64,000 bases of DNA, from contig NZ_CP072309.1 in NCBI RefSeq assembly GCF_017726655.1, positions 186,001 through 250,000 of the forward strand, written 5' to 3'. How positions within the stretch are numbered: position 1 is the stretch's first letter; each line of letters begins with the position of its first letter. The notes below the pieces were generated by a model, which saw only the letters and a program-made list of their open reading frames with translations, had not been told where the DNA came from and did not search any database. The position numbers were made by a program, and so were the translations under genes. This document shows, piece after piece, positions 47,215-58,004 of the stretch. Source of the DNA: Agrobacterium tumefaciens. GTDB lineage: Bacteria > Pseudomonadota > Alphaproteobacteria > Rhizobiales > Rhizobiaceae.

Positions 47215-47245
47215 TAAAAAAGGGGAGGCGCTCACACGCCTCCCC
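47215..47245 (-). terminator. intrinsic terminator of the TRAP/monooxygenase operon
   Basis: On the minus strand: GGGGAGGCG-TGTGAG-CGCCTCCCC followed by TTTTTTATTAG. A textbook terminator 23 bases after the DctP-type gene. It also lies just after the plus-strand dehydrogenase gene and may serve both. Confidence 0.88.
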
Positions 47246-47268
47246 CGTTCTTCGTCTGCCCCATAGTC

Positions 47269-48267
47269 TCAGGCAGACTGCACGGCCTGTATCTTCTCAA
47301 GACCGCCAACGACCCCGGCGAAATCCTGCCAGACGCCCTGCGCGCCCTTGCGCCATTCATCCAGCGCTTCCGGCTGCAGCACTTTGCCGCCCTTGGACAG
47401 CGCAAGCTCAACAGACTTCGCTTCATCCTCAACGATCAGCTGATTGAAGTACTTCGCGCCTTCGCTGGAAGCCTCCGACAGCACCTTCTTCTCTTCGTCA
47501 TCCAGCTGGTTCCAGAAGGTCGCGCCATAATAAACGACGCCGGAAGCCCAGATGTGGCCGGTTTCCGTCAGATAGGGCACGACCTCGTAAAGCTTGAAGC
47601 CGGCATAGGCCGACTTGGTGAGGTCCATGGCATCGGCCACGCCGGTTGCCAGCGCATTATAGGTCTCGGTGATCGGAATACCGACCGGCGTCGTGCCGAA
47701 GGCGCTCCACAGCTTGGTATGCAGCGGGCTCTGGATAACGCGGATCTTCTTGCCCGCAAGCTGCTCTGGCCGTGTCACCGGCTCCTTTGTCAGCAGGTGG
47801 CGTGCGCCGTAATTGATGAAATCGGCGGCGATGAATTGCTGAGCGGCGAGCTTCGTCTTCAGATCAGTGCCGGTCTCGCCCGTCACCACCTTGCGCACAT
47901 GGTCGGCATCGCGGAAGAGGAAGGGCAGATCGAGGATTTGCAGTTCCGGCACCCAACCGGAAAGCGAGGAAACGGTTGAAAGACTGGCCTGAACCGAGCC
48001 GAGACGACTATTTTCCGCCACTTCCTTTTCACCGCCCAGCGCACCGCTTTTCACGATGTTGAAGCGGAAACGGCCGGGCAGCTTCGCTTCCACCAGCTCA
48101 CTGATCTTGACCCAGATCTTCGTCTCCGGCTTGTCGTCAGCGAAAAGCGAGGCGACGGTGAGGTTGCGGGCCCTGGCATTTGCCGTGCGCACGAAGGCCG
48201 GTGCGGCGAGCGTTGCCGCACCGAGAGCGGAGAGTTTGAGGAGATGACGACGGTCCATAATGGTCAT
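47269..48267 (-). CDS. TRAP transporter substrate-binding protein, Tat-exported
   Basis: 332 residues. The N-terminus MDRRHLLKLSALGAATLAAPAF is a twin-arginine-type signal (an ATG three codons upstream is also possible). DctP features: NSRLGSVQASLSTVS, LQILDLPFLFRDADHVRKV and KKIRVIQSPLHTKLW with the substrate arginine. Last gene of an operon read SsuA-like, SsuD, DctQM, DctP. The enzyme context suggests a sulfonate or related organosulfur anion rather than a dicarboxylate. Confidence 0.9.
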   Translation of the reverse strand: MTIMDRRHLLKLSALGAATLAAPAFVRTANARARNLTVASLFADDKPETKIWVKISELVEAKLPGRFRFNIVKSGALGGEKEVAENSRLGSVQASLSTVSSLSGWVPELQILDLPFLFRDADHVRKVVTGETGTDLKTKLAAQQFIAADFINYGARHLLTKEPVTRPEQLAGKKIRVIQSPLHTKLWSAFGTTPVGIPITETYNALATGVADAMDLTKSAYAGFKLYEVVPYLTETGHIWASGVVYYGATFWNQLDDEEKKVLSEASSEGAKYFNQLIVEDEAKSVELALSKGGKVLQPEALDEWRKGAQGVWQDFAGVVGGLEKIQAVQSA

Positions 48268-48282
48268 GAATAAAGCCCCGGA

Positions 48283-50115
48283 TTAGAAGAAAATGGCCCA
48301 GACGCACAGAATGGCAAGGGAAACTAGAAGAGAGACAAGATAGGGAACAACAGCCCGGAAAAGTGCTGTCGCCGGAATGCGGGTGACGCCGCTGACCACA
48401 AAGATCAGCATGCCGAGCGGTGGTGTCAGGCCGTGGATCATGAGATTGACCACGAGGATGACACCGAAATGGATGGGATCGATACCGGCCGCCACGGCAG
48501 CGGGCAACAGGATCGGCCCGAACAGCAGGATGGCAGCACCGATATCCAGCACCAGTCCCACCACGAGCAGGATGAGGTTGGAAAGCAGCAGCACCGCGAT
48601 CTTGCTGCCGCCGAGCAAAGTCACGAAATCCGTGACGAGGCCGGAGACATTATCAACCGCCAGCAGGAAGGCGAAGGGGCCAGCCGTGCCGATCAGGAGG
48701 CCAATCGCCGCCGCCTCACCGGCAGACTGGCGGAAAGTTGCGAAAATGCGGCCCGCGCCCAGCCGATAACCGAAACCGAGAAACAGCGTATAGAGCGCAG
48801 CAAGGGCAGCAGCCTCCGTAGTGGTGACGACACCGATACGGATACCGACCACCACGATGACGCCAAGACCGAAAGCCGGTATGGCAGAGATAGCCGAACG
48901 CCAGCGCTCAGCACCTAAGGCACGCGGCAACGTGTCGACGCTGCGCACGCTGAGATGGATTGCCACCGCAAGGCAGATCGCCATCAGCCCGCCGGCGAAG
49001 AAGCCGCCGACCAGCAGCGAGCCGACCGACAGATTGGTAGCCGTCGCAAGGATCAGAAATGCGATGGAGGGTGGAATGACATTGTCCAGCACCGAGGTGG
49101 CGGCAATGATCGCGCCTGCCTGTGCCGGTGGATAGCCGTGCTTCACCAGTTCCGGCTGGAAGGTGGAAGCGCCGAAGGCGGCATTGGCAACCGAAGAACC
49201 GGATGCGCCGGAAAAAAGCACGCTGGTCAAAAGCGTCGTCTGCGCCAGCCCCGCACGCCGATGGCCGACCATGGAAGAAGCGAAACGGACGAGCTGGTTG
49301 GCGACGCCCGATTCCGTCAACAGGCTTCCGGCCAGCAGGAAGAAGGGAATGGCGAGCAACAGGAATTTCGACATGCCGGTCACCGTCGAAGACACGATGG
49401 CTGGTTCCGGCAGGGTGCTGCCGAAGGCGATCGCTACATAGGCCGCAGCAAGGAAGGCATGGGCGAGCGGTGCGGCCAGAACCAGTCCCACGGCCGCCGT
49501 CAGCGCCAGAAACAGACTCGGCGGCAGGCTCGTATCGACAAACAGTTCCGGCAGGCCGACATAAGAAACGACCGCGATGGCGACGGAGAGCAGAACGGCA
49601 AGCGCCTTGCCTTCACCGACCCGCTGAAGCGCCAGATAGACAAAGATCAGCGCGCCGCCCGCTCCGAGAAAACCGAAGCGCACCCATTCCGGCAGACCGA
49701 GCGTTGGCGACGTGCCGCCTAGCATGGCCGCAATCTCCACCCCGCCGAAAGCAAGGATGAGGGCTGCGACAAAGGAAAAGGCATCGGCCAGAACTTCGGT
49801 TGCCGCATGAAAGCGTTCCGGCAGGAAGCGCACGAATACATCCAGCCGCATGGCCAAAGCGCTCTTCAGACTGAGGGGCGCGCCGACCGCGATCATCGCC
49901 ACATTCAGCCATATGCCCAGATCTTCCGCGCCGATGAAGCCGGTATGGAACAGATACCGCAGGGTGACATTGACCAGCACCACCACGAGCAGCGTCGCAA
50001 GGATGGCGGCGGCAACCGCGCCCAGCACCTTGTCCAGAACGCCAAGCGCCCGTTCGGCCACGCGTTGTGGACCGAAGCGCCGTTGCACGATTGTTGTTGC
50101 CGGACTTGCCGTCAT
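48283..50115 (-). CDS. fused TRAP transporter membrane subunit (DctQ-DctM)
   Basis: 610 residues from MTASPATTIVQRRF at 50115, ribosome site GGAGAAG. Residues up to about 190 are a DctQ-like part (VVLVNVTLRYLFHTGFIGAEDLGIWL); the rest is DctM with LLAIPFFLLAGSLLTESGVANQL, SVLFSGASGSSVANAAFGAS, NVIPPSIAFLILA and LMIHGLTPPLGMLIF. Fusion of the two subunits is a known variant. It contrasts with the split DctQ and DctM of the hexuronate system 6 kb away. Confidence 0.92.
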   Translation of the reverse strand: MTASPATTIVQRRFGPQRVAERALGVLDKVLGAVAAAILATLLVVVLVNVTLRYLFHTGFIGAEDLGIWLNVAMIAVGAPLSLKSALAMRLDVFVRFLPERFHAATEVLADAFSFVAALILAFGGVEIAAMLGGTSPTLGLPEWVRFGFLGAGGALIFVYLALQRVGEGKALAVLLSVAIAVVSYVGLPELFVDTSLPPSLFLALTAAVGLVLAAPLAHAFLAAAYVAIAFGSTLPEPAIVSSTVTGMSKFLLLAIPFFLLAGSLLTESGVANQLVRFASSMVGHRRAGLAQTTLLTSVLFSGASGSSVANAAFGASTFQPELVKHGYPPAQAGAIIAATSVLDNVIPPSIAFLILATATNLSVGSLLVGGFFAGGLMAICLAVAIHLSVRSVDTLPRALGAERWRSAISAIPAFGLGVIVVVGIRIGVVTTTEAAALAALYTLFLGFGYRLGAGRIFATFRQSAGEAAAIGLLIGTAGPFAFLLAVDNVSGLVTDFVTLLGGSKIAVLLLSNLILLVVGLVLDIGAAILLFGPILLPAAVAAGIDPIHFGVILVVNLMIHGLTPPLGMLIFVVSGVTRIPATALFRAVVPYLVSLLVSLAILCVWAIFF

Positions 50116-50143
50116 GTTGTTCTTCTCCACTCCCGCGCCATGC

Positions 50144-51271
50144 TCAGGAGGCCTTGGCCGAGAGGTCGCGGTCGAACAGGGTCGACCAGGTGAACTGTTT
50201 CGCCGCTGACACTTCCCGCGACACATCGAGGCGTGGCAGAACCTTTTCCCCGAAGCGGAAGGCTTCCTCCAGCAATGGCATGCCGGAAAGAATGAAGGTA
50301 TTCACACCCGCCTTCTTATAGGCCTCCAGCGTCCGGATGACAGTATCGGGCGAGCCGACAATCGCGGTTCCCGGGCCCGGACGGACAAGCCCGATGCCAG
50401 CCCAAAGATTGGGGGCGATTTCCAGATCGCGCAGGTTCTCCGGCTTCTGCCCGCCATGCATCGCCGTCATGCGCTGCTGGCCGACGGAATCGGTCTTGCC
50501 GACAAAACGCTGGTTGGCGGCAATCGCTGCCTCATCCATGCGCCCGTAAAGGTCTGCAGCGGCGGCCCAGGCTTCTTCATCCGTATCGCGCACGATAACA
50601 TAGAGGCGAATACCATATTCCAGTTCTCGGCCGAGCTTTTCCGCCCGCGCCTTGACGAGGTCGACCTTTGCGCCAATCTGATCAGGCGTTTCACCCCATG
50701 AGAGATAGGTCTCGACATGTTTGGCCGCAACGTCGATTGCCTTGTCCGAAGAGCCGCCAAACCATAGCGGCGGCTGCTCAATACCCTGCCCCACCGGCAG
50801 AGCGAGCTTTGCCCCCTGCGTCTGGAAATAATGCCCTTTGAAATCTACTGTTTCGCCGGCGAAGAGCCGGTGCCAGATTTGCAGATATTCATCCGCCATA
50901 TCGTAACGCTCATCATGCGGCATGGTCATGCCGTATGCGCCGAGCATCTTCGCATCGCCGGACACGACGTTGATCAGCAGACGCCCACGCGAAAACTCCT
51001 GGAGGGTTGCCGCCATTTTAGCAAGCAGCGTCGGCGCAATCAGGCCCGGATGAATGGCGACCAGCAATTTGAGCCGCTCGGTATGGGAGAGCAATGCGCC
51101 CGCCAGAACCCAGACGTCATGCGCGCCGGTCGCAAACAGCGCGCCGGTATAACCCAGCTGATCGTAAGCGAGCGCCAGTTGCTTGTAATAACCGAGGTCG
51201 ACCTTCCGGGAGCCTTCCGGCTGCCAGGGATAGGCGCCGTCGGGGGCGCACATGTACCAGAAAACATTCAT
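50144..51271 (-). CDS. ssuD: FMNH2-dependent alkanesulfonate monooxygenase type (luciferase-like)
   Basis: 375 residues, bacterial luciferase-like TIM barrel. MNVFWYMCAPDGAYPW, the long LAYDQLGYTGALFATG, LLVAIHPGLIAPTLLAKMAATLQEFS, INVVSGDAKMLGAYG and WFGGSSDKAIDVAAKH follow SsuD. Uses reduced flavin and oxygen to split a C-S bond, giving an aldehyde and sulfite. Overlaps the SsuA-like gene by 4 bases. No flavin reductase (SsuE) or SsuBC transporter is present; a TRAP transporter takes their place in the operon. Confidence 0.88.
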   Translation of the reverse strand: MNVFWYMCAPDGAYPWQPEGSRKVDLGYYKQLALAYDQLGYTGALFATGAHDVWVLAGALLSHTERLKLLVAIHPGLIAPTLLAKMAATLQEFSRGRLLINVVSGDAKMLGAYGMTMPHDERYDMADEYLQIWHRLFAGETVDFKGHYFQTQGAKLALPVGQGIEQPPLWFGGSSDKAIDVAAKHVETYLSWGETPDQIGAKVDLVKARAEKLGRELEYGIRLYVIVRDTDEEAWAAAADLYGRMDEAAIAANQRFVGKTDSVGQQRMTAMHGGQKPENLRDLEIAPNLWAGIGLVRPGPGTAIVGSPDTVIRTLEAYKKAGVNTFILSGMPLLEEAFRFGEKVLPRLDVSREVSAAKQFTWSTLFDRDLSAKAS

Positions 51272-52134
51272 CTGTCGCCTCCGACGCTGGCTGATTGCGG
51301 GGCCGGGCTCTGCCCGGTCTGAACCGGTAAAGAGAAATGGCCGTGCCTGTAAAGCGTATCGGCCTCCTCCTGCTGTTCGGCAAGGATATTTTTAGTGGCG
51401 GGAACCACGGAAAGATCGCGCGAACGCAGCACCTTCGCCCAGGAGGCCGCATCACCCTCACTGCCAGGCCCAGCGGCAAGCAGCGCCGCCGCCTTGTCGA
51501 TATCCGCCATGACGGCGCGGCCGACGCGGTCCAGTTCGGCCGCTATCGCCTGTCCTCTCTCCCGCGTTATATTGTGACGCGCAAGCGTCCAGAACAGCGA
51601 GCGGTTGGGAATGGTTGAACCGCAGCGGACGAGAAGGTTGATCTCCTCGTGGGTCAGCGCCTTTTCCAGCCGCGGCGACATCGTCACCCAGGCATCCACG
51701 CGGCCTTCCACGAGATCAAGCAGGCTGTCGCTGTCACCGCTTTCAATCCGCGTCACATCCGAAAGACCAAGACCTGCCCCTTCCAGGCTGCGCGCCAGAA
51801 GATAGGTGTGAAAAGACCCGTCGATCAGCGAGATCCGCTTTCCCTCGAGATCGCCGGCAGAGCGGATCGGGCTGTCACGCCGAACGAGGATCGCGCCATT
51901 CGCCGGCCTCGGCGCGGAAGCAGCTATATAGGTTGCCGAAAGCCCGCGCGCATCGGCTTCGATGGGCGGCGTCGAACCGGTGCCACCGAAATGAATGGCG
52001 CCCTTTTCCAGAAGAGCTGCCGTATCGCGGCCTTCACGATAGGCCACGAATTCCGGATCGAATTCTTCAAAGGCGCCGGGCCAGAGCCGGGCGAGCCGCA
52101 AATGCAGATTATTGGGATGGACCCCGATTTTCAT
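51268..52134 (-). CDS. SsuA/NMT1-like binding protein without signal peptide
   Basis: 288 residues, fold of sulfonate/nitrate/taurine-type periplasmic binders: KIGVHPNNLHLRLARLWPG, LLEKGAIHFGGTGSTPPIEA, GAILVRRDSPIRSAGDLEGKRISLIDGS and VEGRVDAWVTMSPRLE. The protein starts directly in the binding domain. An in-frame TGA lies 12 bases before the ATG, so no signal peptide can be added; the ribosome site is GAGGTG. It is first in the operon with SsuD and the TRAP genes. It may act in the cytoplasm as a substrate sensor or carrier. Confidence 0.82.
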   Translation of the reverse strand: MKIGVHPNNLHLRLARLWPGAFEEFDPEFVAYREGRDTAALLEKGAIHFGGTGSTPPIEADARGLSATYIAASAPRPANGAILVRRDSPIRSAGDLEGKRISLIDGSFHTYLLARSLEGAGLGLSDVTRIESGDSDSLLDLVEGRVDAWVTMSPRLEKALTHEEINLLVRCGSTIPNRSLFWTLARHNITRERGQAIAAELDRVGRAVMADIDKAAALLAAGPGSEGDAASWAKVLRSRDLSVVPATKNILAEQQEEADTLYRHGHFSLPVQTGQSPAPQSASVGGDR

Positions 52135-52156
52135 GTCGACACCTCATTTCACGATC

Positions 52157-52323
52157 AATCTACTTTTTTATAGAGTGTTTTCGAGGAAGGTTTTGGCGAT
52201 CCTTGGTCCGAAAGCGAAAGAGAAATCTACCAATCCTGTAGATTTTAAAAATTCTGGAGCCACCCTCAGGTTGCCTCCATCAAACCATTGAAATTTATCG
52301 CTATACATTTTACTTTTTTATAG
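52157..52323. promoter_or_regulatory. repeated operator-like elements between the sulfonate operon and arsR-like gene
   Basis: The 211-base divergent gap holds an exact 13-base direct repeat TACTTTTTTATAG at 52161-52173 and 52311-52323, one copy next to each divergent gene. Between them is a perfect 8-bp inverted repeat AAATCTAC-N7-GTAGATTT (52223-52245). The half-site AATCTAC occurs again at 52157. The ArsR-type regulator encoded to the right is the likely binder of one of these elements. Confidence 0.55.
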
Positions 52324-52345
52324 TCTGAAACATGGGCCCGCAGTC

Positions 52346-52711
52346 GTGACGAAACCCGTTTCCAATCTCATCTGCCGCAGTGTGGTGGAAGCGAGCGAGC
52401 TTCTGAAGCTTGTCGCCAACGCCAACCGTCTGGCCATCGTCTGTTACCTCATGGAAACGGAGGCCTCAGTTTCGGCGCTGGAATACGAACTCGGTATTCA
52501 ACAGCCAACACTTTCCCAGCAGCTCGCTGAACTGCGCGACGCCGGGATCATCGAAGGTACACGGGAAGGCAAGGCGGTGATATATCGTGTCACCGATCCG
52601 CGTATTATCCAGCTGGTTCTGACCTTGCGCAGTCTTTACAAAGACCTTTCCGATGTGACCGGCAAGAAAGGCCGTCGCGACGTGCCGCTGGATGAGGCGA
52701 TGTTCGACTGA
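52346..52711 (+). CDS. ArsR-family regulator, BigR/SqrR-like
   Basis: 121 residues from a GTG start. Winged helix typical of ArsR: LLKLVANANRLAIVCYLMETEASVS, LGIQQPTLSQQLAELRDAGII, GTREGKAVIYRVTD. The sequence is nearest in pattern to persulfide sensors BigR/SqrR/YgaV. The first sensor cysteine has a counterpart at C33 (AIVC), but the second, normally in a LYC segment near the end, is replaced (RSLYKDL); the only other cysteine is C10. Divergent from the sulfonate operon and followed by a GST gene after 1 base. Confidence 0.87.
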   Translation: MTKPVSNLICRSVVEASELLKLVANANRLAIVCYLMETEASVSALEYELGIQQPTLSQQLAELRDAGIIEGTREGKAVIYRVTDPRIIQLVLTLRSLYKDLSDVTGKKGRRDVPLDEAMFD

Positions 52712-52712
52712 C

Positions 52713-53342
52713 ATGATCGACCTTTACACCTGGATTACGCCGAACGGCCTTAAAATCTCGATTGCACTGGAAGAACTTGGCCTGCCCTATGTCAGCCACG
52801 CCATAGACATCGAAAAGGGCGAGCAATTCGCGGCTGATTATATCCGCATCAATCCCGGCTCGAAAATTCCAGCAATCATCGACAATGACAACAGCACCGT
52901 CCTGACGGAATCAAACGCGATCCTCCTCTATCTCGCCGAAAAGGTCGGGCGGCTTCTGCCCGCCTCTAGCGCTGAGCAGCTGATCGTGACCGAATGGCTG
53001 ATGTGGCAGGCCGCCAATCTCGGCCCGACACTCGGTTATGCCCATTATTTCCTGACTTATCATTCCGGAGAGGCGCCCTTTGCTGAGACGCGTTTTGCAG
53101 CCGATGTCGAGCGTCTCTACCGAACATTGAACAACCGTTTAACAGACAGGGAATATGTGGCCGGCGATTTTTCCATTGCCGATATTGCCATATGGCCGTG
53201 GGTCTCGCGTTTCGCACGCCATAAAATCAACCTCGATGATTTTCCCTCGGTACAGCGATGGTATCGCCGGCTTGGAGAACGCGAAACTTTCCAGCGTGGT
53301 TACCGCGTCCCCTTCTCAACGGCGGACATACCGGGACTTTAG
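52713..53342 (+). CDS. glutathione S-transferase family protein, YfcG/Nu-class-like
   Basis: 209 residues. Thioredoxin-like N-terminal domain MIDLYTWITPNGLKISIALEELGLPY with the TPNGxKI motif of YfcG-type disulfide-bond oxidoreductases, NPGSKIPAIID and the glutathione contact TESNAILLYLAE; helical C-terminal domain to the end. Cotranscribed with the ArsR-type gene. A thiol role would fit sulfite or persulfide stress from desulfonation, which is inference. The 3' end overlaps the following minus-strand gene by 4 bases. Confidence 0.88.
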   Translation: MIDLYTWITPNGLKISIALEELGLPYVSHAIDIEKGEQFAADYIRINPGSKIPAIIDNDNSTVLTESNAILLYLAEKVGRLLPASSAEQLIVTEWLMWQAANLGPTLGYAHYFLTYHSGEAPFAETRFAADVERLYRTLNNRLTDREYVAGDFSIADIAIWPWVSRFARHKINLDDFPSVQRWYRRLGERETFQRGYRVPFSTADIPGL

Positions 53343-55174
53343 CAGGCGACGAGATGGCCGGGCGAAACTTCGCGATACTCCCGCGGCTTCACGACATAAT
53401 CGACGGCGCGGATCGGGCTTTTCAGCTCGTCATTCGCAGCGCCGCGCCTTGTGCTGCGGCGATCCGGATCCGGCACGGGAACAGCAGCCATCAGCTTGCG
53501 GGTATAGTCGTGCTGAGGGTTGTCGAAGACAGCGGCACGCGGACCGATTTCCACGATCTCACCAAGATACATCACCGCCACACGGTGACTGACGCGCTCC
53601 ACCACTGCCATATCATGGGAAATGAACAGGAAAGCGAGATCAAGGCTCTGCTGCAAGTCCAGCATCAGGTTGATGACCTGTGCCTTGATGGAAACATCCA
53701 GCGCCGACACGCTCTCATCAGCGACGATCACCTTGGGCTGGAGTGCGAGCGCGCGGGCAATGCAGATGCGTTGCCGCTGGCCACCGGAAAACTCATGCGG
53801 ATAACGCGCCGCCATCTCGGGAGAGAGGCCCACCTTGTGCAGCGTGTCGGCCACAACATCCTTTGCTTCACGGGCACTTCCCATGCGATGTTCCAGATAG
53901 GGTTCGGCAATCGCCGCACCCACCGTCATACGCGGATTGAGCGAGGCGAAAGGGTCCTGAAAGATCATCTGCACTGTCTTGCGCATGTCACGCATCCCCG
54001 CCTTGTCGAGGGTGAGAATATTTTGACCGTTCACAACGACAGAACCGGCATCCGGCTCGATGAGCCGCATGATGGCGCGCCCGGTCGTGGACTTGCCGCA
54101 GCCGCTTTCGCCCACCAGTGACAACGTCTCCCCGGCCCTCAGGTCGAAGGACACGTTTTCCACCGCATGTACGCGGCCACTGAGCCGACCCATGAGACCG
54201 GAATGAATGTCGAAGCGCTTTGTCAGCCCCTCAACTTTGAGCACCGGCTGTGCTGCGGCATTGACGGTATCAGCCGGACGCGCCGGTTGCTGCGTTTCCC
54301 CCGTGGTGGTGTTGACGATGGGAAACCGGAGAGGCCGTTCCTCGCCCGTCATGGAACCGAGAACCGGAACCGCGGACAAGAGTGCACGCGTATAGGGATG
54401 TTTGCCGCGATGGAAGATATCAGCGGTAGCGCCGACTTCCACCTGTTCGCCGCGATACATAACGACGGTACGGTCGGCGATTTCAGCAACGACGCCCATG
54501 TCATGGGTGATGAAGAGGACGGACGTTCCCTCCTCTTCCTGCAAGGTCTTGATGAGGTCGAGGATCTGGCCTTGAATGGTGACGTCGAGCGCCGTCGTCG
54601 GCTCGTCCGCGATCAGAAGCTTCGGTCTGGACGCAAGCGCCATCGCGATCATCACGCGCTGGCGCATGCCACCGGAAAAGCGATGCGGATATTCATCGAA
54701 ACGAGATGCTGCCGAGGGGATGCGGACTTTTTCCAAGAGGCGGATCGTCTCGGCCCGCGCCTCGGCTTTTGACATGGGCTGGTGGCACAGAAGAGCCTCG
54801 GAGATCTGGTCACCGATGGTGAAGAGCGGGTTGAGGCTGGTCATCGGCTCCTGGAAGATCATCGCGACTTCGTTGCCACGCACCCGCCGCATGGCATCTT
54901 CAGAAAGAGAGAGCAGATTGCGCCTGCCGAGCAGGATTTCGCCCTCGACCCTGCTGCTTTCCCGATCCAGCAGCCGCATGATGGAGAGCGATGTCACGCT
55001 TTTGCCTGAACCGCTTTCGCCAACGATCGCAACCGTCTCGCCCGGCCCGACGTCGAAGGAAATATCACGCACAACCGGTTTCCAGCCGCCATCCACGTGG
55101 AAGGACGTGGTGAGATTGCGGACGGAAAGCACCGCATCTTCAGCACTCAGAAGTGCCGCATGTGGGATGGTCAT
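53339..55174 (-). CDS. peptide-type ABC transporter ATPase with two fused domains (DppD-DppF/GsiA type)
   Basis: 611 residues. First half: Walker A GESGSGKSV, signature FSGGMRQRV, Walker B LLIADEPTTALD. Second half: GESGCGKST, FSGGQRQRICIARA, VIVADESVSALD. The fusion replaces separate DppD and DppF subunits. It lies downstream of the PLP-enzyme gene with a mosaic repeat between them, and is the only ATPase that can serve the DppB/DppC permeases at 59308-61124. Confidence 0.93.
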   Translation of the reverse strand: MTIPHAALLSAEDAVLSVRNLTTSFHVDGGWKPVVRDISFDVGPGETVAIVGESGSGKSVTSLSIMRLLDRESSRVEGEILLGRRNLLSLSEDAMRRVRGNEVAMIFQEPMTSLNPLFTIGDQISEALLCHQPMSKAEARAETIRLLEKVRIPSAASRFDEYPHRFSGGMRQRVMIAMALASRPKLLIADEPTTALDVTIQGQILDLIKTLQEEEGTSVLFITHDMGVVAEIADRTVVMYRGEQVEVGATADIFHRGKHPYTRALLSAVPVLGSMTGEERPLRFPIVNTTTGETQQPARPADTVNAAAQPVLKVEGLTKRFDIHSGLMGRLSGRVHAVENVSFDLRAGETLSLVGESGCGKSTTGRAIMRLIEPDAGSVVVNGQNILTLDKAGMRDMRKTVQMIFQDPFASLNPRMTVGAAIAEPYLEHRMGSAREAKDVVADTLHKVGLSPEMAARYPHEFSGGQRQRICIARALALQPKVIVADESVSALDVSIKAQVINLMLDLQQSLDLAFLFISHDMAVVERVSHRVAVMYLGEIVEIGPRAAVFDNPQHDYTRKLMAAVPVPDPDRRSTRRGAANDELKSPIRAVDYVVKPREYREVSPGHLVAC

Positions 55175-55227
55175 GATCGTTCCCTTCTTTCTTCTCGTTT
55201 GAACTCAGGCACGGCGTCGCGGCTTGT

Positions 55228-55349
55228 TTCTTCTCCCCGAGGGGGAGAAGGTGGCCCGAAGGGGCGGATGAGAGGGCAAGCTCTCGATCTATCGCTGCCC
55301 TCGCCCCCTCGTCCCGCTACCGCGGACTTCTCCCCCTCGGGGAGAAGAA
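55228..55349 (-). repeat. RIME-like intergenic mosaic repeat, copy 2
   Basis: 122 bases, reverse orientation of the copy at 7064-7185 with high similarity over the full length, including the terminal TTCTTCTCC inverted ends and an internal GAGAAGGTGG. It lies in the 211-base gap between the PLP-enzyme gene and the ATPase gene of the same operon, so it is probably transcribed. Confidence 0.85.
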
Positions 55350-55385
55350 GCTCGCGGCACCCGCTCGTTCCATAGGCAGTCGCTA

Positions 55386-56582
55386 TTACTCCGGCCAGCG
55401 CAACATGCCGTCGAAACGGTGGCGGCTGCGGTCCTCGAACGGTGTGGTGATTACCTCGTTGGAGGCGCGCGCCTTGTCCAGTTCCTCCGCCAGACGCGCG
55501 GCCACGATGGTTTCCTGACCGGGATGCAGATTGCACGGGTCGAGATGGAAATAATGATGCTCCACCTCATGGTCACGGGTGATGATGGGAGGGTTGCCCT
55601 GCGCCAGCGCCGTCGTCAGATCCCAGGCGGAAATGTGCGCTTCCTCGGCGTTGATGATGACACGCAAGCGCTCGAGCGGGTTATTGGTTGGGTCGGGCTC
55701 GATCAGCGGCGTCACGCCGGGGCGTCCGTCCAGTGTCTGTTTCCAGAGGTTGAGATAGCCAGTCTCCCGCTCGCGAATGCCGGCATGGTCCCGCTTTTCC
55801 CAGGCCTCGAGCGCCGCCATTACGCCATAGATGCTTTCCTTGCCGACCTTCATGCCGCGGCCGATACCCATATTCTGCAGGAAAGCATGGCGAACCAACT
55901 CCTTCTTGCCCGCAACGATGCCAGAGGTGGGGCCGCCAAGAAACTTGTGGCCGGAATAGAGCACGACATCCGCGCCCGTCGCCAAAAAGAGTTTCAGATC
56001 ATATTCAGACGCTGCATCGACGATCACGGGCACCCCCCTGGCATGGGCGATCTCAACGAACTCCGACAGATGCAGCAGGCCGTAATCAACCACATGATGC
56101 GAAACGACGTAGACAGCCGCAGCCGTCTTTTCGCTGATGGCATGTTCCATATGGTAACGATGGGTCGATGTCGCCTGTCCGATCAGCACGACCTTGCCGC
56201 CGCCAAGACGGATCGCCTGATCCACTGGCGCGCCGTAGCTAACCACATGCCCCATCTGCACAAGCACTTCGTTCTTTTCCGGCGTGATATCGGGCAGTTT
56301 CTCAATCGCCAGCAGATTGTTGCCGGTAATGGCGCCCGCCACCGCAAGGCTGATGCCGGAGGAGCAGGAGGCCGTGACGAAGCCCGCCTCGCCGCCCGTC
56401 AGTCGCGCTATCACGGCACTTGCCTTGCGCTGCAGGTCGTTTACCTCGACAAATTGCGGCAGGATCGCCGCCATCGCCTCGACGGCTTCCGGAACAACGA
56501 TGGATGCGCCAAGTGAAGTCATCGTACCCGAGACGTTGATGACCGGTCGAAGCCCGATCCTGTTCCTGATATCCTCGGTCAT
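55386..56582 (-). CDS. PLP-dependent enzyme, SelA/DgaE-like (amino-acid or amino-sugar-acid lyase type)
   Basis: 398 residues from [19 protein letters not shown] at 56582, ribosome site AGGAG; a longer open frame upstream crosses the promoter. Features: [48 protein letters not shown] and the probable Schiff-base lysine in [14 protein letters not shown]. The family is related to selenocysteine synthase and includes D-glucosaminate-6-phosphate ammonia lyase. Its neighbours are a COG3964 hydrolase and a RidA protein. An ammonia-lyase reaction giving an enamine would suit this context. The substrate is not known. Confidence 0.87.
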
Positions 56583-56627
56583 GTCTTTCTCCTGTCCTTG
56601 CGATGCGATGGGCATCGACATATATGC

Positions 56628-56637
56628 CATAATAATG
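56628..56637. promoter_or_regulatory. CATAATAATG motif, copy between PLP-enzyme gene and iclR
   Basis: CATAATAATG lies in the 88-base divergent gap. It recurs before the binding-protein gene (62886-62895, minus strand). With flanks the two sites agree in 16 of 20 positions (TATNNCATAATAATGNAA). The motif is nearly palindromic. Likely operator of the IclR-type regulator or a shared promoter part. Confidence 0.5.
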
Positions 56638-56670
56638 TAATAGCCTCTCAAGAATGATGAGGAGCCAAAA

Positions 56671-57507
56671 TTGGACGCCCATAGACTGGACGAATTGTCT
56701 TCAAGAAGTCTCCCCGATGCCACTGAGAGCACGCAGGCGCAGGCAGCCAAGCGCTCGCGCGTCAGCGGCATCGACCGCGCTCTTCAGGTGATTGATTATC
56801 TTTACGAAACCGGCTCTCCCGCCGGGGGTTACGCTATTGCCAAGGCAATCAAGGCGCCGCTTTCCACCGTTTACGTAATCATCGACGATCTCGTCGAAAA
56901 AAACATGCTTGCCCGCAATGCCGACGGCAACATCTGGCTTGGCTCGCGACTTTACCACTATGGCCTCGCCTATGCCCGCTCTCTCGATTTCATGGGCGTT
57001 GCCACGCACGAAATGCACGACCTCTGCCGCCATGCGGGTGAAACTGTGCAGCTTTGCGGCCGCGATGGCGACCATATGCTCGTACTCGCCATGGCGGATG
57101 GGCCGAGCCATTTTCAGGTTGCGTCCCGCGTCGGCACCCGTATTCCCTTGAACTGGACGGCATCCGGCCGTCTGCTGGTCGGTCATCTTCCCGAGGCAGA
57201 GCGCCTGGAGCTTTTCCGCCGTTGCGCCCGCTCCTCGCCGACCGGCCGCGCGGAGATCAATCCAGAAACGCTTTCCCAGTCTGCGGCAACCGCATTTCAT
57301 GACAGACTGTCGATACAGGTCGCCGAATCCGATTACGCCGTGGCCTGCATCGCGTCGCCGATCTGTGACAACCGGGGCGAATGCGTCGCGACCATTTCCA
57401 TCGTGCTGCCGGAGCAAAAGGTGCTGGCCGACGAGAACCATTATACCGAACAGGTCAGGGTTTCGGCCGAACGGATCGAAAAGCTGATGGGCTGGCGTAA
57501 CCATTAA
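56671..57507 (+). CDS. IclR-family transcriptional regulator
   Basis: 278 residues from a TTG start with GAGGAG six bases upstream. N-terminal winged helix ([28 protein letters not shown], then [17 protein letters not shown]) and the C-terminal IclR effector domain ([64 protein letters not shown]). It is the only plus-strand gene within this minus-strand cluster and the obvious local regulator. Confidence 0.9.
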
Positions 57508-57512
57508 ATTTT

Positions 57513-58004
57513 TCAGCCCTTAAGTGCCACGATGGCTTCGATCTCGACAGTGATATTGCCCGGCAGTGACCCAAACCCTACGGCGGAGCGGGCATGCTGC
57601 CCGGCATCGCCGAAGACGTCGATAAAGAGGTCGGAACAGCCGTTGATGACGCTCGGGTGATCCCTGAAGTCGCTGACGGCATTGACCATGCCAAGCAGCT
57701 TCACCACCTTTTTGACGCGTGACAGATCTCCCAGCGCCGCATGCATGACCGCCAGAAGATTGATGCCGGTGAGGCGGGCGTGATGATAAGCCTCCTCGAG
57801 CCCGATATCGGCCCCCACTTTTCCCGCGTAAAGATGGCCATCCTCCTCACGAGGCCCCTGCCCCGAGAGATACAACATGTTGCCTTCCACCACATGCGTG
57901 ACGAAATTGGCAATCGGCGGCGGCGGTGGCGGCAGCGAGATGCCGAGCGCGGCAAGCCGGTCATAGGGCGAAAGACCCTCGGCGCTAAGTGAAGACTGTT
58001 TCAC
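57513..58004 (-). CDS. RidA/YjgF superfamily protein (longer, polyproline-start subfamily)
   Basis: 163 residues from a GTG start after TGAGGAATTCGC. The sequence LGISLPPPPPPIANFVTHVV and MLYLSGQGPREEDGHLYAGKVG marks the longer YjgF-like subfamily (about 150 residues) rather than short RidA. The arginine used by RidA for imine hydrolysis has a counterpart in ARSAVGFGSLPGNITVEIEAI. RidA proteins hydrolyse enamine/imine products of PLP enzymes, so it fits the nearby PLP lyase-type gene. Convergent with iclR, 5 bases apart. Confidence 0.9.
   Translation of the reverse strand: MKQSSLSAEGLSPYDRLAALGISLPPPPPPIANFVTHVVEGNMLYLSGQGPREEDGHLYAGKVGADIGLEEAYHHARLTGINLLAVMHAALGDLSRVKKVVKLLGMVNAVSDFRDHPSVINGCSDLFIDVFGDAGQHARSAVGFGSLPGNITVEIEAIVALKG

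Follow-up and report, generated by a model that had tools for sequence, protein, structure and literature searches.

A 64,000-nucleotide stretch of the Agrobacterium tumefaciens genome (assembly GCF_017726655.1, contig NZ_CP072309.1, positions 186,001 to 250,000; hereafter the window) carries a gene cassette in which a relative of the binding protein SsuA, here called SsuA′, is paired with a relative of the flavin monooxygenase SsuD, here called SsuD′. SsuA is known from textbooks as a binding protein of the periplasm, and SsuD usually works with the SsuABC importer and the flavin reductase SsuE. SsuA′ lacks an export signal, and the importer encoded beside the pair is exchangeable between a tripartite ATP-independent periplasmic (TRAP) transporter and an ATP-binding cassette (ABC) transporter; SsuA′ follows SsuD′, not the importer. 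The parts are of known kinds, and what is new is a cytoplasmic SsuA relative tied to a remodelled SsuD-type monooxygenase with exchangeable importers. A conserved SsuA relative has moved to the cytoplasm and stays with an oxygenase rather than with a transporter, and the gene set points to organosulfur handling by a route so far undescribed.

We read the cassette, with a probability of about 0.55, as an inducible and self-contained unit for the import and oxygenolysis of an acidic organosulfur compound, in which SsuA′ acts as the cytoplasmic partner of SsuD′. The compound would be imported by the TRAP transporter, or in sister lineages by an SsuABC-like ABC importer, and SsuD′ would cleave its C–S bond using reduced flavin mononucleotide (FMNH2) and O2, while SsuA′ would work in the cytoplasm with SsuD′, binding the same compound or its product. 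A divergently encoded ArsR-family regulator may act at two dedicated operator-like sites to repress both transcription units, and would be released in response to the substrate or to sulfite, a reactive sulfur species or another thiol-reactive signal. A glutathione S-transferase (GST) encoded with the regulator could deal with glutathione disulfides or adducts arising along the pathway.

Gene order, conservation and exchange of importers

The four genes of the main unit are consecutive on the minus strand. SsuA′ (51268..52134), an SsuA-fold protein of 288 aa without a signal peptide, is followed by SsuD′ (50144..51271), an SsuD-related luciferase-like flavin monooxygenase (PF00296) with a remodelled active site, the two genes overlapping by 4 bp. 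After about 28 bp comes the fused TRAP permease DctQM (48283..50115; 610 aa), and after a further 15 bp the DctP-type TRAP solute-binding protein (47269..48267), whose leader contains an RR pair, present within the first 20 residues in 40/40 rows. The start of DctQM was taken as the ATG at 50115, the longest open frame beginning at 50226, and the protein was scanned minus its first Met. All three TRAP components, DctP, DctQ and DctM, scored over their cut-offs: DctQM matched PF04290 and PF06808 and reached 299.1 bits on TIGR00786 (cut-off 268.45), and DctP matched PF03480 and reached 176.0 bits on TIGR00787 (cut-off 175.05). A terminator-like hairpin lies 3′ of DctP on the same strand (47221..47246; 11 pairs, 8 of them G-C, a loop of 4 and a T run). 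The earlier note on this DNA had described four genes with short gaps or overlaps and a single terminator, and all of these elements were located, the hairpin being the one strong candidate; the scanned stretch holds six terminator-like sites in total, which does not exceed the mean of 7.0 in shuffled sequence. A scan of the stretch for sigma-70-type promoters found none.

Forty further loci were collected by a contig scan with the SsuA-like protein and selected by exact peptides. In 39 of them, ranging from Rhizobiaceae to Rhodobacterales, a divergent ArsR gene is followed by SsuA′, SsuD′, DctQM and DctP in this order; these 39 and the window make up the 40 cassette rows referred to throughout. 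The loci closest to the window's cassette come from Agrobacterium and from strains filed near it. The exception is a Tardiphaga locus (L052; SsuA′ 42% identical), where about 3.6 kb separate the monooxygenase gene from SsuA′, which it precedes, and ABC-type genes stand both between the two and ahead of them. The earlier note had treated these gene families as one set, and their synteny does extend beyond close relatives. Among three neighbours per side, no gene beyond GST on one flank and DctP on the other is universal in the 39 loci, and the neighbours cluster by lineage.

Additional samples were drawn at the levels of order, family and class without exact-peptide selection; at most 6 to 12 first-look candidates were scored per genome, which makes the tallies lower bounds. 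SsuA′ occurs in at least 4 of 297 genomes of the order (E ≤ 1e-35), with SsuD′ adjacent in the same four, in at least 8 of 199 genomes of the family (E ≤ 1e-30), and in at least 1 of 385 genomes of the class, this one being the window's own. The cassette is rare, yet its two core genes occur together in the order and family samples. The divergent ArsR gene and the SsuA′–SsuD′ pair are kept at all nine places found beyond the window's own in those two samples; three of the nine (L067, L068, L074) appear to repeat L015, L027 and L047, and six are new. The full order holds in 39/40 loci and that of ArsR, SsuA′ and SsuD′ at 9/9 sampled places, so that the arrangement is not a matter of chance.

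The six new places divide between the two importer types. L069, L070 and L075 have TRAP genes; L071, L072 and L073 encode in their place an ABC permease and an SsuA-type protein whose leader resembles a signal, and show an ATPase match as well, beside an SsuD′ that is 80–82% identical to the window's. Rhizobium lusitanum (L057) shows the same arrangement, and on the Ti plasmid pTiQ15_94 (L058) SsuD′ is followed by an ABC permease gene and, further along, by an ATPase-like frame, no binding protein of the ABC set being identified at that locus. In all, five relatives have ABC genes instead of TRAP genes while retaining SsuA′ and an SsuD′ 79–82% identical to that of the window, and in four of them (L057, L071, L072, L073) the ABC set brings its own SsuA-type protein with a signal, as judged by eye. 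The binding proteins of L071 and L072 score 189.5 and 186.1 bits, over the SsuA cut-off of 163.5; the permease of L073 has SsuC as its best match, below cut-off, and counterparts 71–85% identical to it occur in the other four ABC-form relatives.

Plasmid records extend this picture. Eight were examined of 47 matched, and six of these are SsuA′ loci, each with SsuD′ adjacent: those of Thioclava, Marinibacterium and Terrarubrum have TRAP genes, and R. lusitanum, pTiQ15_94 and Streptomyces SAT1 have ABC genes, so that adjacency of SsuA′ and SsuD′ reaches a Streptomyces plasmid. The remaining two records hold signal-bearing SsuA-type proteins of ABC operons. In a tree of SsuD′ (32 rows chosen from the loci) the TRAP and ABC forms do not fall into two clean groups, and with its deep forks unsettled the tree fixes neither the number nor the direction of the exchanges. 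Since SsuA′ persists beside SsuD′ under ABC importers that have their own binding protein, SsuA′ is not the importer's binding protein. The natural swap between TRAP and SsuABC-like importers beside one enzyme also offers a clean route to the substrate, which should be bound by both of two unrelated binding proteins. The earlier note had proposed that the TRAP system imports the sulfonate, or a related compound, used by SsuD; the exchange of importers beside the same SsuD′ is as expected from this proposal, but SsuD′ is not an ordinary SsuD, and its substrate need not be a sulfonate.

Two plasmid loci show further peculiarities. On pTiQ15_94 the ArsR gene, SsuA′, SsuD′ and the ABC permease gene (L058:5373-10781) adjoin a gene of the octopine/nopaline dehydrogenase family. 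On the Terrarubrum plasmid (L059:10001-13169) DctP is matched in two pieces, in frames that overlap, and a NIPSNAP gene lies between SsuD′ and DctQM.

SsuA′ in the cytoplasm and the remodelled SsuD′

The claim of the earlier note that the SsuA-like protein cannot be exported as written is borne out, as no signal was found in the window or in 40 relatives. In a structure model the start of SsuA′ coincides with the first strand of the mature SsuA fold, and in the window an in-frame TGA stands 9 nt upstream of the start. The open stretch upstream is shorter than 15 codons in 31/40 relatives; in the other nine it runs for 20–62 codons, polar or short, with no signal-like segment by eye. An annotation error as the cause of the missing signal was considered and is ruled out by these upstream stretches together with the match to the mature SsuA start. 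The SsuA fold is present. On the SsuA model TIGR01728 the protein scores 101.1 bits, below the cut-off of 163.5, and G53, G106, S107 and W149 are held in common with the majority of the four canonical proteins used for comparison. A second set of residues, H6, N9, R76 and R178, is a fingerprint limited to SsuA′.

SsuD′ falls below both curated SsuD cut-offs (TIGR03565, 412.9 against 518.2 bits; PRK00719, 426.6 against 510). In E. coli SsuD numbering, taken from the alignment, the sulfonate clamp W196, R226 and R297 is retained in 40/40 cassette rows. H11, C54, H228, Y331 and H333 are replaced by A, A, Y, M and L in the same 40 rows (H11 faces a gap in the alignment that gave the numbering). 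For comparison, a study of the related enzyme MsuD gives its sulfonate-binding motif as W195, R225, R296 and A/S299, assigns H10 and H227 to the second shell, and gives RGGA as the loop consensus (PMC8234197). SsuD′ has RPGP in place of RGGA in 41/41 rows (L052 added to the 40 cassette rows), whether the importer is TRAP or ABC, and the Streptomyces relative has it too. A TLFD tail is found in 40/40 cassette rows, and neither in L052 nor in the shown part of the Streptomyces relative. Judged by these sequence features, SsuD′ is a separate subfamily of the SsuD type.

The flavin supply was considered across the window's genome (5.08 Mb, two contigs), which has eight PF01613 reductases. A PF01613 flavin reductase gene lies no more than about 1.1 kb from each of its two genes next most similar to SsuD′ (47% and 36%). 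In L069 (11269-11829) and L070 (10332-10904) an FMN reductase gene follows GST, and the L069 product, the one of the two that was scanned, reaches 226.7 bits on the MsuE model (cut-off 212.5). These MsuE-type reductase genes, together with the reductases beside similar genes, support FMNH2-dependent chemistry.

Competing readings and relation to known systems

Several observations weigh against our reading of the cassette as an oxygenolytic unit for an organosulfur compound. No flavin reductase is encoded in or near the window's cassette, and no match to the SsuE model TIGR03567 was found in the window's genome at E ≤ 0.001. The replacement of five active-site residues and the loss of RGGA suggest that the substrate may be other than a sulfonate; carboxylates are the usual ligands of TRAP binding proteins, and the cassette's DctP has no close similarity to the one that binds isethionate (8t9t; E 4.6e-24, 33rd of 93 matches). 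In the Tardiphaga locus the monooxygenase and SsuA′ are not adjacent. GST is not essential to the unit: both Rhodobacterales loci, L049 and L050, lack it, and no match was seen in L055–L060, L071–L073 or L075. The last cysteine of the window's ArsR protein is residue 33, which sets it apart from the BigR/SoxR group as described. To our knowledge, no substrate is known for any member of the cassette family.

One hypothesis, which we regard as doubtful though serious, is that the compound handled is an acid other than a sulfonate, such as a carboxylate or an adduct derived from glutathione, and that the sulfonate look of the cassette reflects descent only. The changes in SsuD′ and the TRAP importer speak for it, as do the presence of GST in 37 of the 39 order-keeping TRAP loci and a gamma-glutamyltransferase-family gene without an obvious signal directly after DctP in two loci (L055:12947-14539, L075:13635-15227). 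It might be speculated that GST, in the rhizobial TRAP forms, and the gamma-glutamyltransferase gene mark a glutathione-related compound or a glutathione-linked clean-up. Succinate has also been seen in the sulfonate site of MsuD (PMC8234197). What tells against a non-sulfonate acid is that the sulfonate clamp is retained in the rows compared, and that TRAP can be replaced by an importer related to SsuA and SsuC, with binding proteins in L071 and L072 that exceed the SsuA cut-off.

Equally tentative is the idea that SsuA′ is an enzyme acting after SsuD′, as DszB acts after DszA, with SsuD′ making a sulfinate (or similar) and SsuA′ freeing sulfite. Like the DszABC system for dibenzothiophene, the cassette joins a luciferase-like monooxygenase to a cytoplasmic partner of periplasmic-binding fold, and DszB is the model for such an enzyme (PMC4839641). 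Unlike DszB, SsuA′ is nearer to SsuA and appears to have no Cys near the position of DszB Cys27; the structural offset, read from range ends only, would place His6 near it. A sequence link between DszB and SsuA′ was looked for and not found, SsuD′ is SsuD-like, and the cassette has its own importer and ArsR gene. As to the role of SsuA′, we consider a ligand carrier or sensor and a DszB-like enzyme about equally probable.

In CmpC and NrtC, regulation of the importer has been ascribed to a binding-protein-like domain, and SsuA′, which matches these domains in fold and cytoplasmic location, could likewise be a ligand sensor regulating the importer. This appears unlikely: SsuA′ is a separate protein beside an oxygenase, without a fused partner domain such as the ABC ATPase of CmpC and NrtC, and it adjoins SsuD′ under TRAP or ABC, whereas a transporter regulator would be expected to follow the transporter. 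SsuA′ has the fold and family membership of SsuA and could be taken for an ordinary one minus its signal, the relic of an ABC importer displaced by TRAP. This is the least probable reading by far, because SsuA′ coexists with signal-bearing SsuA-type proteins in L057, L071, L072 and L073 and is kept in all five ABC relatives, and because the signal-less form persists in 40 loci with its own fingerprint whereas relics decay.

Returning to SsuA′ as the cytoplasmic partner of SsuD′, the nearest known systems are SsuEADCB and MsuED, with which the cassette shares an SsuD-family flavin monooxygenase, an SsuA-fold protein and a dedicated importer, as well as, in two relatives, the MsuE-type reductase gene. 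It differs from them in its mostly TRAP importer, cytoplasmic SsuA′, remodelled SsuD′ and accompanying ArsR gene, and in the missing reductase of the window. Import by TRAP is shared with the DctPQM systems for isethionate and other sulfonates, one of whose binding proteins has been solved, but the cassette's enzyme is an oxygenase. Known TRAP cases for C2 sulfonates serve anaerobic lyases, and a paper on anaerobic C2-sulfonate metabolism reportedly mentions TRAP transporters, alkanesulfonate monooxygenase and SsuD. The same three terms occur, not joined in the passages concerned, in a report on SAR202 genomes (PMC5395668). The earlier note knew of no description of such a complete set, and we likewise found none, either of the set or of a signal-less SsuA′ of this kind, in the literature searched, where subscription journals are thinly covered.

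A bolder proposal, to which we give rather less than an even chance, is that SsuA′ founds a family of cytoplasmic enzymes of periplasmic-binding fold, or of obligate substrate-loading factors. From Rhizobiales to Streptomyces it would be permanently teamed, as second component, with an SsuD-type monooxygenase of remodelled active site. Their target would be an acidic organosulfur compound for which such degradation is not yet known, and TRAP and ABC import would be freely exchanged. If SsuA′ were such an enzyme or loading factor, it would be an added component for two-component flavin monooxygenases and would account for genes that currently carry the annotation "ABC transporter substrate-binding protein".

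Divergent genes, paired sites and surroundings

The earlier note omitted the ArsR gene, GST and the operator-like sites from the unit, although ArsR and GST travel with the four genes. The ArsR-family gene (52346..52711, plus strand; PF01022) encodes a protein with Cys10 and Cys33, both present in 40/40 rows, any other column having at most two Cys. Membership of the BigR/SoxR/SqrR group fails, with 86.9 bits on the BigR model NF040642 (cut-off 155) and a missing second cysteine position; a study of this group describes two cysteines, Cys50 and Cys116 in its member sHdrR (PMC12423496).

Two operator-like sites lie between ArsR and SsuA′, where they would flank the divergent promoters, both on the minus strand and 150 bp apart in the same orientation: site 1 (52155..52178) is 20 bp before SsuA′ and site 2 (52305..52328) is 17 bp before arsR. 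The pair (consensus TCAATYTATAAAAAAGTARATTGA) is found with ≤8 mismatches in 38 of 40 ArsR–SsuA′ intergenic regions (39 loci and the window), two Rhodobacterales loci lacking it, and the same criterion picks out 20 of 8000 mononucleotide-shuffled regions. The spacing is 149–151 bp in 37 of the 38 regions, while the DNA between has diverged; in L024 it is 139 bp, about one helical turn (11 bp) less. Such fixed spacing may reflect DNA looping by the ArsR protein, which we infer to bind these sites. At ≤2 mismatches the operator core occurs in the window's genome at these two places only (a control pattern gave one match), and the regulator therefore looks local.

GST (52692..53342, plus strand; PF02798) overlaps arsR by 20 bp and is of the GSH-dependent disulfide-bond oxidoreductase type, scoring 165.8 bits on NF010579 (cut-off 332). 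In L034 and L035, two of the 37 loci that have it, the match is split in two pieces as if interrupted, which may be decay or an assembly error. Adjoining the cassette in the window (53339-58004) are genes for an ABC ATPase of the GsiA type that has two ATPase domains, a pyridoxal phosphate (PLP) enzyme resembling DgaE/SelA (below cut-off) and a Rid-family protein. The ATPase and the DgaE/SelA-like enzyme adjoin the cassette only in L014–L022 of the 40 loci, and accordingly lie outside it.

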